A stretch of 64,000 nucleotides of DNA, taken from assembly GCF_021134715.1 (NCBI RefSeq), contig NC_060018.1, forward strand, positions 4,791,501 to 4,855,500, written 5' to 3'. This DNA is from Daphnia pulex (taxonomy: Eukaryota > Arthropoda > Branchiopoda > Diplostraca > Daphniidae). The notes under the pieces are model-generated. The model was not told the origin of the DNA. It saw only the letters and a program-made list of their open reading frames with translations, and did no database searches. This document shows, piece after piece, positions 28,649 through 64,000 of this stretch (its first letter is position 1; each line of letters opens with the position of its first letter). Position numbers and translations under genes: made by a program.

Positions 28649-30115
28649 ATGGTAGTCAATTTTATAAGCCAGATGTCTGAATCCTTTTGGTCATCAGATG
28701 TTTGGTTGCCTCCCGGAGTCACCTGGAAAGATATCGAACCTAATGACCAAAATCCAATCGCTTATCCCCGCTTTAGCGATATTTGGTATCCTGTTTTATT
28801 TTCGTTCGGTCTTACTTTCCTCAGGCTGTTGTTTGAAAAGTAAGTAGAAGTAAAACTTTGAAAACATTATAATGAGGATGTTTCTTATAACCACTGCTTG
28901 CTTTCCTATTCCACAGGTATGTTTTCTTTCCGTTGGGCGTAGCCAATGGTCTGAGACCTGTCAGGCCTTGGAAAGGCCAAGCACCAGATAATCCTACGCT
29001 AGAGAAGGCCTATCTTGTAGCGAGAAAAGGCAGATTAAACTACAAACAGATTCAAGGACTAGCCAAACAGTTGGACTGGACAGAGAGACAAGTGGAGAGA
29101 TGGATTCGCATGAGACGAATGATGGATCGGCCCTCTACACTTGTCAAGTTCATGGAGTGTGGCTGGAGGTTCAGCTACTATGGATTTATTTTTGCCTACG
29201 GAGTGTGGACTCTCTGGGATAAAGATTGGCTCTGGGACATTAATAATTGCTGGTACACTTTCCCTCACCAGGTAAACCAAACAACTCTAAATGTTCTGAC
29301 AGCTAAACAACATATTCAAATTTTTGTAGGGTGTGACCAACGATATTTGGTGGTATTATATGATTGAGCTTAGTTTCTACTGGTCTTTGCTCTTCTCAAT
29401 GTTTGAAGACATCAAGAGGAAAGATTTTTGGGAAATGTTGATTCATCATTTTGTAACTATTATTTTGTTGGTTCTGTCGTGGACATGTAACCTCGTTCGA
29501 GCAGGGACCCTTGTTCTTGTGATACACGATTGCGCCGATATCTTCTTAGAAATGGCCAAAATGATGAAGTACATAAAGTACCAACGAACATGTGATGTGT
29601 TGTTCGGGATTTTTACGGTTACTTGGATATGTTCACGACTGGTGGTATATCCATTCTGGTTCCTCTATAGGTATGTAAACCTTAAACTGCCAATTCGTAC
29701 GTCTCCTTTTAATACGTCTGTACTCATCTCGATATTTTTAACTTACAGCACGTGTATCGGCGCTAAAGAAATAGTGCCCATGTTTCCTGCTTACTATATT
29801 TTCAACTCGCTGTTACTAATGCTGCTTATTTTGCACGTCATATGGACGTATTTCATTCTCAAAGTATTATACCGAGCCATTCTTTCAGGACAGGTAAATT
29901 TCATTAGCTTTTCTTACATTTTTCACATGGAAATTAATTTTACTCCTTGCTGGTACGATCAGATGGAAAAAGATTCTCGTAGCTCATCCAGCGAAGATTT
30001 CAGCGAAGATAATAGCAAATCTGGCAATTCTTCGGCCTCACCTACGACTCCATCCAAACGATTGCCTGCCAGCTCCTTGAGCCAGCAAAGTCGAGAACAC
30101 AAGAATTCCAAATAG
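28649..30115 (+). CDS. CerS: Ceramide synthase (Lag1/TLC family with Hox-like domain)
   Basis: Five exons: 28649-28839, 28917-29271, 29330-29670, 29749-29893, 29963-30115; 394 aa, the usual family size. Ceramide synthases are endoplasmic-reticulum membrane enzymes that N-acylate sphingoid bases with fatty acyl-CoA. Residues about 64-135 form the partial homeobox-like region (RLNYKQIQGLAKQLDWTERQ and a WIRMRR helix) found in most animal ceramide synthases and in Drosophila Schlank. The TLC domain follows with several hydrophobic segments, including a His pair in LIHHFVTI near 221-222 and the Lag1 signature HDCADIFLEMAK near 248-259, whose His and Asp residues are needed for activity. The tail is Ser-rich and acidic, as in mammalian homologues where it is phosphorylated. 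An earlier ATG at 28613 and a later one at 28673 are possible starts. AATAAA at 30252 is a likely polyadenylation signal. Confidence 0.93.
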
Positions 30116-35222: not shown

Positions 35223-37596
35223 ATGATTTCATCTGTTTCCAAATCTACTCTTCATCTTTCATCAGCACAGAGACTTTTTGTTGGGTAAATAAGTTTAAAA
35301 AATGTTGACAGTTAAAACTAAGCGTACAACATTAATGTTTGCCCACTTTATAGGAAATCATTTTTTAGATTTTTGGGTGGACCATCTATTATTCAAGAAC
35401 CTATTGCTCAGCCAATTAATTTGGCAAATGAACCTATTTTAGGTAAAAGTTAAATTTACTTTTGATTTGATGCATTCATGATTTGTTTTTCATATTTAGG
35501 TTATTTGAAAGGCAGCGAAGAAAGACTTGGCTTGGAAAATGCATTACAACATAGACAATCTTCTGTTGAAGAAATTCCAATTGTTATTGATGGCAAAGAA
35601 TATTGGACTGATGATGTTCATTATCAGACAATGGTATTATATTTCTTCCGAACCACACTTATTGACATGCTTATTGTGTTGTTTTTTTTTTATTTATTAA
35701 ATTGCAGCCCTCTAACCATCAGAAAAAGATCGCAAAATTCTGCTACGCTACTCCCGTATTTTACTATAAAAAAAGTGTTATTTTTGTTTCTTAATTTTTT
35801 ATTTCCATGGAAATAGGAACTACTACAAAAAGCTATTGGCGTTTCATTGAAAGCCAGAAGCGCCTGGGAGAAGGTTCCTTTGAATAAAAAAGTTGATATT
35901 TTTTTAAAAGCCGGAGATTTGGTTTCCACAAAATATCGTAGTCAGCTCAATGCATCTACCATGCTGGGACAAGGCAAAACAGTTTTTCAAGCTGAAATTG
36001 ATGCAGCTTGTGAATTAGCGGATTTTTTGCGGTAAAACAAATATAGAACATATTGGTAATAATGACGTTACTCAAGAAGTTTTATAAAAATAGATTTAAT
36101 GCAGAGTTTGCTCAACGATTGTATGATTATCAACCAGTAAACGTTGATCCTTCGATAAAAAATTCGGTCAAATATTTATTTTCATTAAAGAAACCATAAA
36201 CTTTAAGATTAACTTAATTCATGTGCAGGTTCGACATAGAGGGTTGGAAGGATTTATCGCCGCTATTTCTCCATTCAATTTCACAGCCATTGGAGGAAAC
36301 CTTGCATATGCCCCTGCGATTATGGTACTATTCAACCATTCTTTATTTAAGAATTTATGGATGTTTAGAATGGTTTTGTGATTAGGGAAATGTTGTTCTG
36401 TGGAAACCCTCTGACACAGCAATGTTGTCGAACTATATAGTATTCCGATTGATGGAAGAAAGCGGAATTCCTCCTGGCGTAGTGAATTTCCTGCCTGCAG
36501 AGGGTCCTACTTTTGGACGAGCGATTACCAACTCAACGCATCTAAGCGCCATTAATTTCACAGGATCTGTTCCGTAATATTTTTAGATACCTGATGGTAC
36601 CGACGAAATTCTATTGCTATTATTTTTTTGGAAACAGGACATTCCACTTTTTGTGGAAGCAAGTAGGAGACAATGTTGACCGCTTCCAGAATTTGCCGCG
36701 TTTGGTTGGCGAGTGCGGAGGTAAGAATTACCATTTGGTTCATTCATCTGCAAATGTGGAGCACGTTGTCAATTCTACCCTTCGTGGCGCTTTTGAGTAT
36801 TCTGGACAAAAGTGTTCGGCAACGTCAAGGTTATATGTCCCATCCTCATTATGGAAACAGGTTAGATCTATTTGGTGTCTCATATTAATTTAATACTCTA
36901 CGTTTAAATGAATCTATTACATTTTCTAGATAAAAGAAGGGCTAATCGAGGGTATGAAGCAAATGAAAATTGGTCCAGTCACCGACTTTGACTCATTTAC
37001 GTCTTCGGTCATTGATAGTCGAGCTTATGATCGCATAACCTCTTACATTAAGCACGCCGAACAGTCACCGGACCTTCAGATTATTGCTGGCGGGCAGCGA
37101 AATAAAAGTGTTGGGTATTTTATAAATCCAACCCTAGTAGAAACTAAAAATCCCCGTGATCGCATAATGGTGGAAGAAATTTTCGGACCCGTTCTCACCG
37201 CCTTCGTTTATGACGACAGCGCACTAGAAGAAACATTAGACCTAATTGATTCTTCTACGTCCTTTGCTTTAACGGGAGCAGTTTTTGCAGAGGATAGAGA
37301 ATTTCTCGTTCAAGCTGCTGAACGACTGAAAATGTCCTGTGGAAATTTCTACATTAACGACAAATCGACTGGTGCTGTTGTTGGACAGCAACCTTTTGGA
37401 GGAGGTCGATTATCAGGTAAGAATAGTAAAACTATTACAAATTTATCATCAATTCCTTAATTCTTTAAATAAATATTTAGGAACCAATGATAAAGCTGGA
37501 AGCCCTCACTATTTACTTCGGTGGACAAGCCCACAGTCCATTAAACAATACTTTAATCATTTGACACAGTTCAAATATCCTCATATGGAAAAGTAA
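35223..37596 (+). CDS. ALDH4A1: Delta-1-pyrroline-5-carboxylate dehydrogenase, mitochondrial
   Basis: Ten exons: 35223-35284, 35354-35442, 35500-35633, 35817-36031, 36094-36166, 36229-36324, 36386-36573, 36638-36860, 36930-37416, 37481-37596; 560 aa, close to human ALDH4A1 (563). The enzyme oxidises glutamate-gamma-semialdehyde/P5C to glutamate with NAD+, the last step of proline breakdown in the mitochondrial matrix. The N-terminus (MISSVSKSTLHLSSAQRLF) has the basic, Ser-rich look of a matrix-targeting signal. Diagnostic segments are AAISPFNFTAIGGN, the Glu motif VGECGGKNYH (E311), the nucleophile motif SGQKCSATSR (C345), MVEEIFGPV, and the ALDH4-typical NFYINDKSTGAVVGQQPFGG. Every intron keeps frame and all catalytic residues are present. 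A TAAGAAT after GECGG looks like a splice donor but is coding, since GKNYH continues the conserved motif. AATAAA at 37998 may end the transcript. Confidence 0.96.
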
Positions 37597-50119: not shown

Positions 50120-51603
<1,484 letters not shown>

Positions 51604-52032
51604 CTATTCAATACCTTCTCTCTTTTTCCACTTCTCTTTTAATTCAGCCAATTTTTCTGATTTTCTAGTGTTATCTTTACTCTTTTTTTCTAACAATCTA
51701 TTTTTTTGTGCCTCAATACTGTCCTCCCCATTGATTAGATTATCGAGTTTTTGGGTTAAGATTTCACGGGCTAATTCTCTGTTTTTAGCTAACGAGCGAG
51801 TCTGGTGACACTTAACAAGTAACCCTGAAGGTTTGTGACGTAAAAGTACAGCATTTGAAGTTTTATTTACAGCTTGTCCTCCAGGGCCACTTCCTCGTGT
51901 AAATTCCTCTTCTAAATCTTCAGGATGTAAAACTGGCACTTTTGAATTATCAAATGTATGTTTGTATCGATAATGTGCTGGACACACAGTTCTTTTCAAC
52001 GACTGGACTAGTACTGTGAATTTTTTAGCCAT
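51604..52032 (-). CDS. MTRFR: Mitochondrial translation rescue factor MTRFR (C12orf65-like), second cistron
   Basis: A single uninterrupted 142-aa frame on the minus strand starting at 52032. It carries the class I release-factor GGQ motif in [17 protein letters not shown] (GGQ at 51-53) with the following [15 protein letters not shown] typical of GGQ-only factors. There is no codon-recognition domain, and the C-terminus is a long basic helix ([20 protein letters not shown]), as in C12orf65/MTRFR. Such proteins release peptides from stalled mitochondrial ribosomes. The N-terminus [15 protein letters not shown], followed by basic residues, fits a mitochondrial targeting signal. The ATG lies 5 nt after the stop of the LYR-motif frame in the same exon, so both are probably on one mRNA. 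The upstream in-frame ATG at 52092 falls inside the intron. Confidence 0.9.
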
Positions 52033-52037
52033 ATTTG

Positions 52038-52308
52038 TCACAGCAATCTCCTCTTGGACAGAAAACTTTGTCCCTTCTGCAAAAAAAAACATATTTTAAA
52101 TTGAATTATCACTAATGAAACACTATAAAATAATTTCAACCTCGTAGGCTTTGCAAATTTCTTCTGGATTCGAAAGTGTTTTGTTCTTGTGAAACTCACT
52201 TTTGATTCTCTTTGAAACCAAACGTTTGTCGGATAGTTTTAACTGCCCACTGTAACGGATACAAGATCGGAACAACTCAAATATTTGAGTTTTGTTAGGA
52301 ACGTTCAT
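52038..52308 (-). CDS. LYR-motif (Complex1_LYR) small protein, first cistron
   Basis: Two exons on the minus strand: 52308-52141 and 52076-52038, separated by a 64-nt intron ending TTTTTTTTTGCAG; 68 aa. The sequence has a LYR-type motif (ELFRSCIRY), a downstream basic helix and the conserved Phe context [15 protein letters not shown], ending [11 protein letters not shown]-motif proteins are small mitochondrial factors that bind acyl carrier protein and help assemble respiratory complexes or deliver Fe-S clusters. I cannot tell which LYRM it is. A start 24 nt upstream (52332) is also possible. The stop codon TGA (52040-52038) is followed by CAAAT and then the MTRFR ATG, so this protein would be the upstream cistron of a dicistronic message. 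Confidence 0.8.
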
Positions 52309-52332
52309 TATAATAAAAATTGTGTTCATCAA

Positions 52333-56070: not shown

Positions 56071-56670
56071 TGCTGTGAACTACCTGTATCAACTGGCTTC
56101 TTCATCGCATTACCAGCTCGCAGCAATTAGTAAATATTCCGGTTCTCTACATAGAGTTTTTTATTACTAAGTCTACGATTGACTATGGGTTAATATGCCA
56201 GTTCCCAGTTGCTATTAAATATTAATGTTTAAATTTCTAATTTTTCTATTTAACTATGGCGTCGTGCTGCTGTTGGATTTTGTATCGTTGATGGCTGGGT
56301 CGACCACTGGTGTACCGACGTTTCCTTCACCAACCCCATCACCAACTGGATTGTTCATCGTTTAACCAGTTCGCAGTTATGGGTAATATTATGTCGAGTG
56401 TTTATCAATCCTTTGTTCTATTTGTTAATATGTCGGTTATTGAAGATTGATATTTTTAATGGTTTAGTCAACTTTAATGTCGTGCTGCTGTCGGATGTTG
56501 TATCGTTGATGGCTGGGTCGACCACTAGTGTACCAATGTCTTTTGGGTACGGATACCAAACCGCAATGCCGACGCCCTACTACACAACAACCATTTCGCA
56601 ATCATGGGTAAATATTCAATGTTTTTTACGGAGTTTTGTATTGTTACTACTTTTTACTATTTGTTAATAT
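56071..56670 (+). pseudogene. Chimeric Tyr-rich family copies 2a/2b
   Basis: Two signal-peptide exons occur close together. The first (near 56255) has CTGCTGTTGGATTTTGTATCG and LMAGSTTG, then fuses into the 5' leader of a second unit. That unit's micro-exon is ATGG/GTAATA (56379-56382) and its second exon starts at 56468. It encodes MVNFNVVLLSDVVSLMAGST, a good signal peptide, then FGYGYQTAMPTPYYTTTIS. It next runs straight into another ATGGGTAAAT leader (near 56607), losing the repeat domain. Both junctions look like deletions between misaligned repeats. The block 56082-56540 is nearly the same as 58465-58935. Confidence 0.65.
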
Positions 56671-57140: not shown

Positions 57141-58560
57141 GTTTGCTGTGCACTATTTGTCACTAACTGCATTCTCCATTGTGTAATTAGTTCGTAATCT
57201 TGAGTAAATATTCTTTTTCTTGTATTTTTGTATCAATTTCTATTTTTTTTTTCTCAATTTAATATGCCAGTTTTTTCATAGAATTATATTAAAATGCCAG
57301 GTGTTATTGCATATTTATGGTCAGTTTATTTATTTTCTAGTAAATTATGGCGTAATGCTGCTGTTGGATGTTGCCCGTTGATGGCTGGGTCAACAACTGG
57401 TGTACCGATGTCTCCTAGGTATGGCGAATATTGAAGCACAGCATATCCGTCTTATTACTCAACATCACCGACGCTGCTTCAGCTTACTACACCAAGGCTC
57501 CAAAGTACTCCACCACCAATGTTCCAGAGTATTACAAGTTGAATCGCAGGAGAGAAAAGGTGAAATAATCAGTCGAGTGATAATCTCCAACACGACAGCA
57601 ACTATTTGGCTTTGCACTATTTGTCGTCAACTGCATTCTTCGTCGTATCACCAGTATGCAATCACGGGTAAATTTTCTGTTTTCTGCATGGAGTTGTGAA
57701 TTAACTCAACTTTTGTTTATTAAATGCCAGTTATTGAATATTTATGTTCAAATTTTTATTTTCTACTAGGCCGAAACTATGGCGTTATACTGCTATTGAT
57801 TGTTGTCCTCAAGTACTTCACCACCGAGGTTCCAGAAAATTTCACTGCAATTTATGCTGCCCCCCAGCTGCAGTACCAAAGAGCCTGAGTACTACACCGT
57901 GGCTTCCAAGTACTATACCACCAAGGCACCGAAGTTATACACGACTACGTATGCTGCCCCAACCTGCTAAACCGTGACTCAAAAGTGTTACTCTGCTTCA
58001 GTTACTACACCGAGGCTCCAACTTACTGTACCACCAAAGCTGCTGAATACTATACCGAAGCGCCCAAGTACTACACCTCCAAGGCTACAGAATGTTACAC
58101 CCATGCTGCATCGAGCTACTACACCGCAGCACCGAAGTATTATTGTGCCCAGAACCCGAGTACTTCACCGAGGTTCTGGATGACTACACTACAACCTACG
58201 TTGCCCCAGCTCACTACACCGTGGCTCCCAAGTACTACAACAACGAATCACCTGAGCACGACTACGTGTGCTGCCTCAACCTACTACACCGAGACTCCCA
58301 AGTATTACTCTGCTTCAGTTACTACACCGAGGTTCCTACTTACTTCACGGCCAAAACGGGTGAATACTACGCCGAAACGCCTAAATACTACTCTGTCCCG
58401 AGCTACACAACCACAACGCGCGGCGGCGGAGTATTTCGTAGCCCCAAATCATTACCCAATGTGAACCACCTGTATCAACTGGCTTCTTCATCGCATTACC
58501 AGCTCGCAACAATTGGTAAACATTCTGGTTCTCTACCTAGAGTTTTGTATTATTAAGTCT
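57141..58560 (+). pseudogene. Broken Tyr-rich family copy 3 with long repeat exon
   Basis: The signal-peptide exon near 57345-57420 has a frameshift (GATGTTGCCCGTTGA) that stops it. The next unit's start reads ACGGGTAAAT (57665). A long Tyr-rich exon at 57790-58464 still shows the family repeat in full: YYTEAPTYCTTKAAEYYTEA, PKYYTSKATE, YYTTYVAPAHYTVAPKYY. It moves between frames at least twice and contains stops. It is a decayed gene with the domain order intact. A diverged duplicate lies at about 61480-62170. Confidence 0.7.
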
Positions 58561-58763
58561 GCTATTGACTATGTGTTATTTTGCCAGTTTCCAGTTGCTA
58601 TTAAATATTAATGTTTAAATTTTAATTTGTCTATTTAACTATGGCGTCGTGCTGCTGTTGGATTTTGTATCGTTGATGGCTGGGTCGACCACTGGTGTAC
58701 CGACGTTTCCTTCACCAACCCCATCACCAACTGGATTGTTCATCGTTTAACCAGTTCGCAGTT

Positions 58764-59109
58764 ATGGGTAATATTATGTCGAGTGTTTATCAATCCTTTG
58801 TTCTATTTGTTAATATGTCGGTTATTGAAGATTGATATTTTTAATGGTTTAGTCAACTTTAATGTCGTGCTGCTGTCGGATGTTGTATCGTTGATGGCTG
58901 GGTCCACCACTAGTGTACCAATGTCTTTTGGGTATCGAAACCGGATACCAAACCGCGACTTACCGACGTCCTACTACACAACAGCAACATACGCTTCAGC
59001 CGGTTATTACATCAAGGCGCCAAGGAATTACACCACAACTTATGATGCCCCGATCTACTGTAACGAACGCCCTGAATTACAGATATCCTTCAGTTGCTGC
59101 AAGCAGTAA
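58764..59109 (+). CDS. Short Tyr-rich secreted protein, the one open copy
   Basis: Two exons: micro-exon ATG-G at 58764-58767 and 58853-59109, giving 86 aa. The N-terminus MVNFNVVLLSDVVSLMAGST is a signal peptide with likely cleavage near AGST. The mature part has family blocks SYYTTATYASAGYYIKAP and NYTTTYDAPIYC and ends CCKQ. It is shorter than the long repeat exon of copy 3, and the final codons overlap a good donor (GCA/GTAAGTG), so another exon may follow. Family members are presumably extracellular, perhaps cuticle or egg-covering proteins; this is inference. No complete promoter module lies directly upstream, so expression is doubtful. Confidence 0.5.
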
Positions 59110-62800: not shown

Positions 62801-62811
62801 TATTGGTTAGA

Positions 62812-64000
62812 AAGAAAAAAGATGATAGAAAGAAAAAAGATGATAGAAAGAAAAAAGATGATTGATAGAAAGAAAAAAGATGATTGATAGAAAGAAAAAA
62901 GATGATTGATAGAAAGAAAAAAGATGATTGATAGAAAGAAAAAAGATGATTGATAGAAAGAAAAAAGATGATTGATAGAAAGAAAAAAGATGATAGAAAG
63001 AAAAAAGATGATAGAAAGAAAAAAGATGATAGAAAGAAAAAAGATGATAGAAAGAAAAAAGATGATAGAAAGAAAAAAGATGATAGAAAGAAAAAAGATG
63101 ATAGAAAGAAAAAAGATGATAGAAAGAAAAAAGATGATAGAAAGAAAAAAGATGATAGAAAGAAAAAAGATGATAGAAAGAAAAAAGATGATAGAAAGAA
63201 AAAAGATGATAGAAAGAAAAAAGATGATAGAAAGAAAAAAGATGATAGAAAGAAAAAAGATGATAGAAAGAAAAAAGATGATAGAAAGAAAAAAGATGAT
63301 AGAAAGAAAAAAGATGATAGAAAGAAAAAAGATGATAGAAAGAAAAAAGATGATAGAAAGAAAAAAGATGATAGAAAGAAAAAAGATGATAGAAAGAAAA
63401 AAGATGATAGAAAGAAAAAAGATGATAGAAAGAAAAAAGATGATAGAAAGAAAAAAGATGATAGAAAGAAAAAAGATGATAGAAAGAAAAAAGATGATAG
63501 AAAGAAAAAAGATGATAGAAAGAAAAAAGATGATAGAAAGAAAAAAGATGATAGAAAGAAAAAAGATGATAGAAAGAAAAAAGATGATAGAAAGAAAAAA
63601 GATGATAGAAAGAAAAAAGATGATAGAAAGAAAAAAGATGATAGAAAGAAAAAAGATGATAGAAAGAAAAAAGATGATAGAAAGAAAAAAGATGATAGAA
63701 AGAAAAAAGATGATAGAATGAAAAAAGATGATAGAATGAAAAAAGATGATAGAATGAAAAAAGATGATAGAATGAAAAAAGATGATAGAATGAAAAAAGA
63801 TGATAGAATGAAAAAAGATGATAGAAAGAAAAAAGATGATAGAAAGAAAAAAGATGATAGAAAGAAAAAAGATGATAGAAAGAAAAAAGATGATAGAAAG
63901 AAAAAAGATGATAGAAAGAAAAAAGATGATAGAATGAAAAAAGATGATAGAATGAAAAAAGATGATAGAATGAAAAAAGATGATAGAATGAAAAAAGATG
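62812..64000. repeat. 18-bp minisatellite array with 22-bp variant block
   Basis: Perfect or near-perfect tandem copies of GATGATAGAAAGAAAAAA fill about 1.2 kb and run off the window. Six early copies (about 62857-62985) carry an extra GATT giving a 22-bp unit. Near the right end a block of GAATG copies (from about 63716) alternates with GAAAG copies, a higher-order pattern. The plus strand has no cytosine. Because 18 is a multiple of three, a long frame of (MIERKK)n appears; it is a by-product, not a protein gene. Confidence 0.97.

Follow-up and report, generated by a model that had tools for sequence, protein, structure and literature searches.

Among described systems, the closest comparisons are a Drosophila gene and a human mRNA. 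In the fly, Hayden and Bosco (2008; PMC2276209) listed a conserved-peptide upstream open reading frame (uORF) of 70 amino acids ahead of the main frame of CG30100, which they label a 'translation release factor'. The uORF and main ORF of CG30100 lie on one annotated transcript, their Ka/Ks values are 0.08 and 0.09, respectively, the uORF was reported to be under purifying selection, and the most distant organism given for the association is the tick Ixodes (EST DN974785) (PMC2276209). The term 'LYR' is absent from the main text of that paper (PMC2276209). In human, the MIEF1 mRNA carries AltMIEF1 (L0R8F8), a LYR microprotein of 70 amino acids, in its 5' leader (PMC4383229, PMC5703645), and the LYR-domain microprotein and MIEF1 were pointed out as a candidate bicistronic pair (PMC4383229).

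The locus described here (Table 1) lies on the minus strand of a window of Daphnia pulex DNA, the window being the whole stretch of 64,000 nucleotides that was analyzed. Removal of a 64-nt intron gave a LYR-family frame of 68 codons. As an earlier sequence-only reading had claimed, the spliced sequence places the TGA of this frame 5 nt ahead of the ATG of a complete MTRFR frame in the same exon. Its claim of two complete, mitochondrial-type frames was likewise borne out by the frames themselves and by their Pfam matches (Complex1_LYR and RF-1); the frames are separate, and have one exon in common. The intron ends in a T9 tract followed by GCAG, and its GC content was 0.19 vs. 0.38 for the LYR coding sequence and 0.36 for that of MTRFR. 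The LYR splice is a prediction, backed by homology. A processed copy of the spliced mRNA was sought by comparing the 737-base unspliced locus with the whole genome, where it matched only itself. The locus is real and well formed, and it is probably functional.

Table 1. Features of the candidate dicistronic locus, in window coordinates.
Feature	Positions	Strand	Remarks
First coding exon, LYR-family (AltMIEF1-like) ORF, codons 1-56, start ATG 52308	52141..52308	(-)	168 nt; Pfam Complex1_LYR; AltMIEF1 match
Intron, 64 nt, GT..AG, GC 0.19 (predicted)	52077..52140	(-)	Homology continuous over junction
Exon 2 (begins 52076), LYR part: codons 57-68 and TGA 52040-52038	52038..52076	(-)	
Intercistronic gap CAAAT, 5 nt	52033..52037	(-)	
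MTRFR (C12orf65/mtRF-R) ORF, 142 aa and TAG 51606-51604, GGQ motif, basic tail	51604..52032	(-)	ATG at 52032; Pfam RF-1
In-frame upstream ATG 52329, possible 7-residue N-terminal extension of LYR ORF	52309..52329	(-)	
ATG 52092 inside intron, in frame with MTRFR, directly before T9 tract	52077..52092	(-)	
AATAAA, candidate poly(A) signal, 207 nt past MTRFR stop	51391..51396	(-)	

Other features were recorded in the window. The next same-strand feature downstream of the locus was an Atg8/GABARAP-type first coding exon (50693-50604, minus strand; best PDB match E = 1.4e-13 over 30 residues). On the plus strand, exons with homeodomain-like and TLC domain matches (28891-30115) presumably belong to a ceramide-synthase-like gene, and an aldehyde dehydrogenase exon was found at 36930-37460 (E = 1e-28). 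The same strand holds a direct duplication (56074-56589 and 58460-58983; 94.5% identity over 525 aligned columns) with further shorter repeats around it, and an 18-bp tandem repeat (62808-64000; about 65 copies, 99% match) with one open frame, in which ERKKMI is repeated, that reaches the window end.

The spliced first protein matched Pfam Complex1_LYR over residues 8-62 (E = 3.9e-9; 36.8 bits against a cut-off of 24.8), and this match crosses the splice junction after residue 56. In a PDB sequence comparison, its best relative was human AltMIEF1/L0R8F8, aligned without gaps (7-64 to 7-64, E = 1.4e-4) through an EKG..FL stretch that is encoded by the second exon; the mouse form (2e-4) and LYRM4 (8.8e-3) were next. 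At the place of the 'LYR' triplet, residues 12-14 are L-F-R, and Phe 39 aligned with a Phe of AltMIEF1. F may stand for Y in this triplet. The protein is conserved across species, in that it resembles both human and mouse AltMIEF1.

Complex1_LYR matches in the genome numbered 9, the window gene included. Comparisons were made with 7 of the other 8 genomic pieces, most of them single exons; the piece L009 was omitted because it duplicates the L011 exon. These two are near-identical LYRM4-like first exons on different contigs (L009, G000 C4:7339058-7339126; L011, G000 C12:8070712-8070777), so that one of them may belong to a gene copy or a pseudogene. The window protein scored 82 against human and 81 against mouse AltMIEF1; none of the 7 genomic pieces gave it a score above 47. 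When human AltMIEF1 was compared with 8 Daphnia-side sequences, the window protein again scored 82 (z 13.2) and the next sequence 51 (z 6.5). A human AltMIEF1 fragment matched only the window locus in the whole genome, weakly (E = 0.65), and a scan with exon 1 of the genome contigs (128 pattern matches) and viral contigs (39) gave no relative by tblastn.

LYRM5 was weighed seriously as a rival identity because the middle part is similar, and was set aside because a separate LYRM5-like exon (L013) in the genome scored lower (47, z 5.6). LYRM1-, SDHAF1-, LYRM4-, NDUFA6- and NDUFB9-like identities were rejected because each has its own exon elsewhere in the genome. These exons, and the LYRM5-like one, were named from human sequences. 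The window protein was nearer to AltMIEF1 than to the other LYR subfamilies compared, a set in which several subfamilies were absent from the PDB and LYRM2, LYRM7 and LYRM9 were left out. Because the PDB is without several LYR subfamilies, the identity is probable rather than proved: the first protein is probably of the AltMIEF1/L0R8F8 type, a putative large-subunit anti-association microprotein.

For the second protein, Pfam gave an RF-1 domain at residues 35-125 of 142 (E = 2.8e-23), with the GGQ motif as GSGPGGQ and with codon-recognition domains absent. The best PDB relative was C12orf65 (E = 5.9e-28, 100.7 bits), and a mouse-type homolog scored 85.5 bits; the next after C12orf65 was bacterial RF2 at 53.7 bits, among 45 sequences at E <= 0.001. 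Residues 1-25 are presequence-like (6 K/R, 0 D/E). Judged by these relatives, the second protein is C12orf65/mtRF-R. We take the fly CG30100 to be the MTRFR orthologue, rather than the ICT1 orthologue; a literature search for CG6094 together with ICT1 found nothing. From its length, order and partner, we infer that the CG30100 uORF is homologous to the window LYR protein.

Human data link the two proteins more closely. PDB entry 7A5H contains both C12orf65 (chain C) and the AltMIEF1 sequence; it has been described as a split large subunit that carries mtRF-R and MTRES1 together with the MALSU1-L0R8F8-mtACP module (PMC8786322). Loss of L0R8F8 in human cells led to less MALSU1 and less of the large-subunit proteins (PMC7312649). 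In the Daphnia genome, two exon matches indicated a MALSU1/RsfS-family gene. Given both counterparts in 7A5H, the effect of L0R8F8 loss and the presence of a MALSU1/RsfS gene, it is probable, by analogy, that both products act on one ribosomal subunit and not merely in one organelle. The mitochondrial role that the sequence-only reading had assigned to both products gained from the mitochondrial-type frames and from the human counterparts in 7A5H, with the role itself carried over from human. No AltMIEF1-MTRFR link in print was found in limited literature searches, among the matches listed (a part of the total in some of them).

We consider it quite probable that the locus is an old arthropod dicistronic mRNA that specifies an AltMIEF1-like microprotein and mtRF-R as separate proteins; a shared mature mRNA and translation of both frames are what we infer. 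The earlier proposal, that one mRNA co-expresses two organelle factors, held as the simplest reading and has a Drosophila precedent (PMC2276209), its single mature mRNA staying presumptive. A single nuclear gene would be transcribed and spliced into one mRNA, on which the two coding frames stay separate. If the human roles apply, the frame 1 product would attach to MALSU1 and to mitochondrial acyl carrier protein, and would hold the large mitoribosomal subunit back from association with the small one; mtRF-R, from frame 2, would act on split large subunits and free the nascent chain from peptidyl-tRNA there. A share of the ribosomes would start at the LYR AUG, and the rest would bypass it, or resume past the LYR stop, to reach the MTRFR AUG.

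The start contexts were A at -3 and A at +4 for the LYR AUG, which is not plainly weak, and A at -3 and G at +4 for the MTRFR AUG, which stands 212 nt downstream in the spliced sequence. Zero AUGs lie between the two starts; with the MTRFR AUG at this distance, leaky scanning is therefore possible, and the 5-nt gap makes reinitiation also possible. Weak first contexts and AUG depletion were described for green-algal bicistronic mRNAs (PMC11892635). The absence of internal AUGs was only mildly unusual here: synonymous resampling gave P = 0.15, and base shuffling gave P = 0.016. AUG depletion was rejected as proof of leaky scanning, being too weak by synonymous resampling. Upstream of the LYR ATG, a stretch of 392 nt holds 6 AUGs (5 out of frame, 1 in frame at 52329), so that simple scanning would be less easy if transcription starts far upstream, and the mRNA 5' end matters. 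A wider proposal is tentative, and we regard it as possible but rather doubtful: an ancestral arthropod mitoribosome-rescue dicistron, in which one mRNA would set the ratio of AltMIEF1, which holds split large subunits apart, to mtRF-R, which clears them. Stress that shifted initiation between frame 1 and frame 2 would then tip the system towards either assembly hold or rescue, and in vertebrates the microprotein gene would have come to precede MIEF1.

Several rival explanations were weighed against the dicistronic mRNA. MTRFR might have a transcript of its own, from a promoter in the LYR exon or intron or by intron retention, and would then be the first frame, opening either at 52032 or at the ATG in the intron (52092). 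It had been argued that MTRFR has no room for a promoter; this argument proved weaker than claimed, as its ATG has 276 nt of the LYR gene (exon, intron and exon-2 sequence) ahead of it and the intronic ATG is in the MTRFR frame. Consensus scans, run without background control, found one DPE-like hexamer (52277) in favor of such a transcript, but no Inr- or TATA-like match in 52308-52033, and placed TATA-like matches upstream of the locus (52592, 52569 and 52567). Read from the intronic ATG, the 20-residue extension would contain 3 acidic residues and 1 basic one, which is unlike a presequence, and the fly uORF and main ORF, which share one annotated transcript, also speak against a separate one (PMC2276209); we give this explanation a small but real chance. 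That frame 1 is mainly a regulatory uORF, which limits MTRFR synthesis and whose peptide has little role of its own, would suit its position and length, and the human MIEF1 uORF was reported to repress its main ORF partly via the encoded sequence (PMC7530721). We nonetheless find this improbable, since the full LYR domain is kept, the AltMIEF1 similarity is gapless, and the fly uORF, if a homologue, is under purifying selection at the amino-acid level (PMC2276209); regulation and a protein role may, moreover, coexist.

Two further explanations concern splicing. An isoform that fuses the frames, which the sequence-only reading had named as evidence against its proposal, could in principle arise. 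Of 9 AG dinucleotides that were tried as alternative acceptors, 4 (52066, 52051, 52048 and 52003) bring the frames into register, and would give a single LYR-MTRFR fusion protein. Such a protein would have a buried MTRFR presequence and would lose the last LYR helix residues, and the T9 tract precedes acceptor 52077, whereas the other AGs follow purine-richer or weaker sequence. Genes with a uORF-main ORF fusion in any annotated variant were, in addition, dropped by Hayden and Bosco (PMC2276209), and we regard fusion as very improbable. Least probable of all is an operon-like precursor, from which spliced-leader trans-splicing at acceptor 52077, 44 nt ahead of the MTRFR ATG, would release a monocistronic MTRFR mRNA; this acceptor is required to complete the LYR frame, and a limited literature search found no Daphnia example of a spliced leader or operon among the matches listed.

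If the pair of frames is kept across arthropods, gene order would independently support a joint role for the AltMIEF1 module and mtRF-R in mitoribosome rescue, as 7A5H suggests. It would also account for the conserved uORF of the 2008 fly list, for which no peptide function is stated in the available portion of that source (PMC2276209). Drosophila and Daphnia would, in that case, be simple systems for testing AltMIEF1/mtRF-R cooperation. A knock-out of the arthropod release-factor gene should be read with caution, as it may take out two mitoribosome factors together.

Compared with known systems, the locus is like the human 7A5H rescue complex in bringing together C12orf65 and AltMIEF1, and differs in that the human proteins come from separate genes. 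The human MIEF1 mRNA is like it in having an AltMIEF1-type microprotein as the first of two frames, whereas the downstream partner there is the fission factor MIEF1/MiD51, vs. MTRFR here. The Drosophila MOCS2 bicistronic transcript (CG10238) also encodes two functionally linked proteins on one animal mRNA; it belongs to another pathway, and in the same table as CG30100 its association was traced to zebra finch (PMC2276209). The nearest likeness is to the CG30100 uORF, a short conserved ORF (70 amino acids in fly, 68 here) before a release-factor ORF, with one transcript in fly; unlike here, the fly peptide is not named LYR or AltMIEF1, and no Daphnia case is given for CG30100, in the available portion of that source (PMC2276209). 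The dicistronic layout was thus already known from fruit flies and a tick in 2008, and the window locus adds a member. Its contribution is that the upstream frame can be recognized, from its sequence, as AltMIEF1-like, together with the functional link with MTRFR that this would imply, whereby the listed fly uORF becomes a testable claim about mitoribosome rescue.
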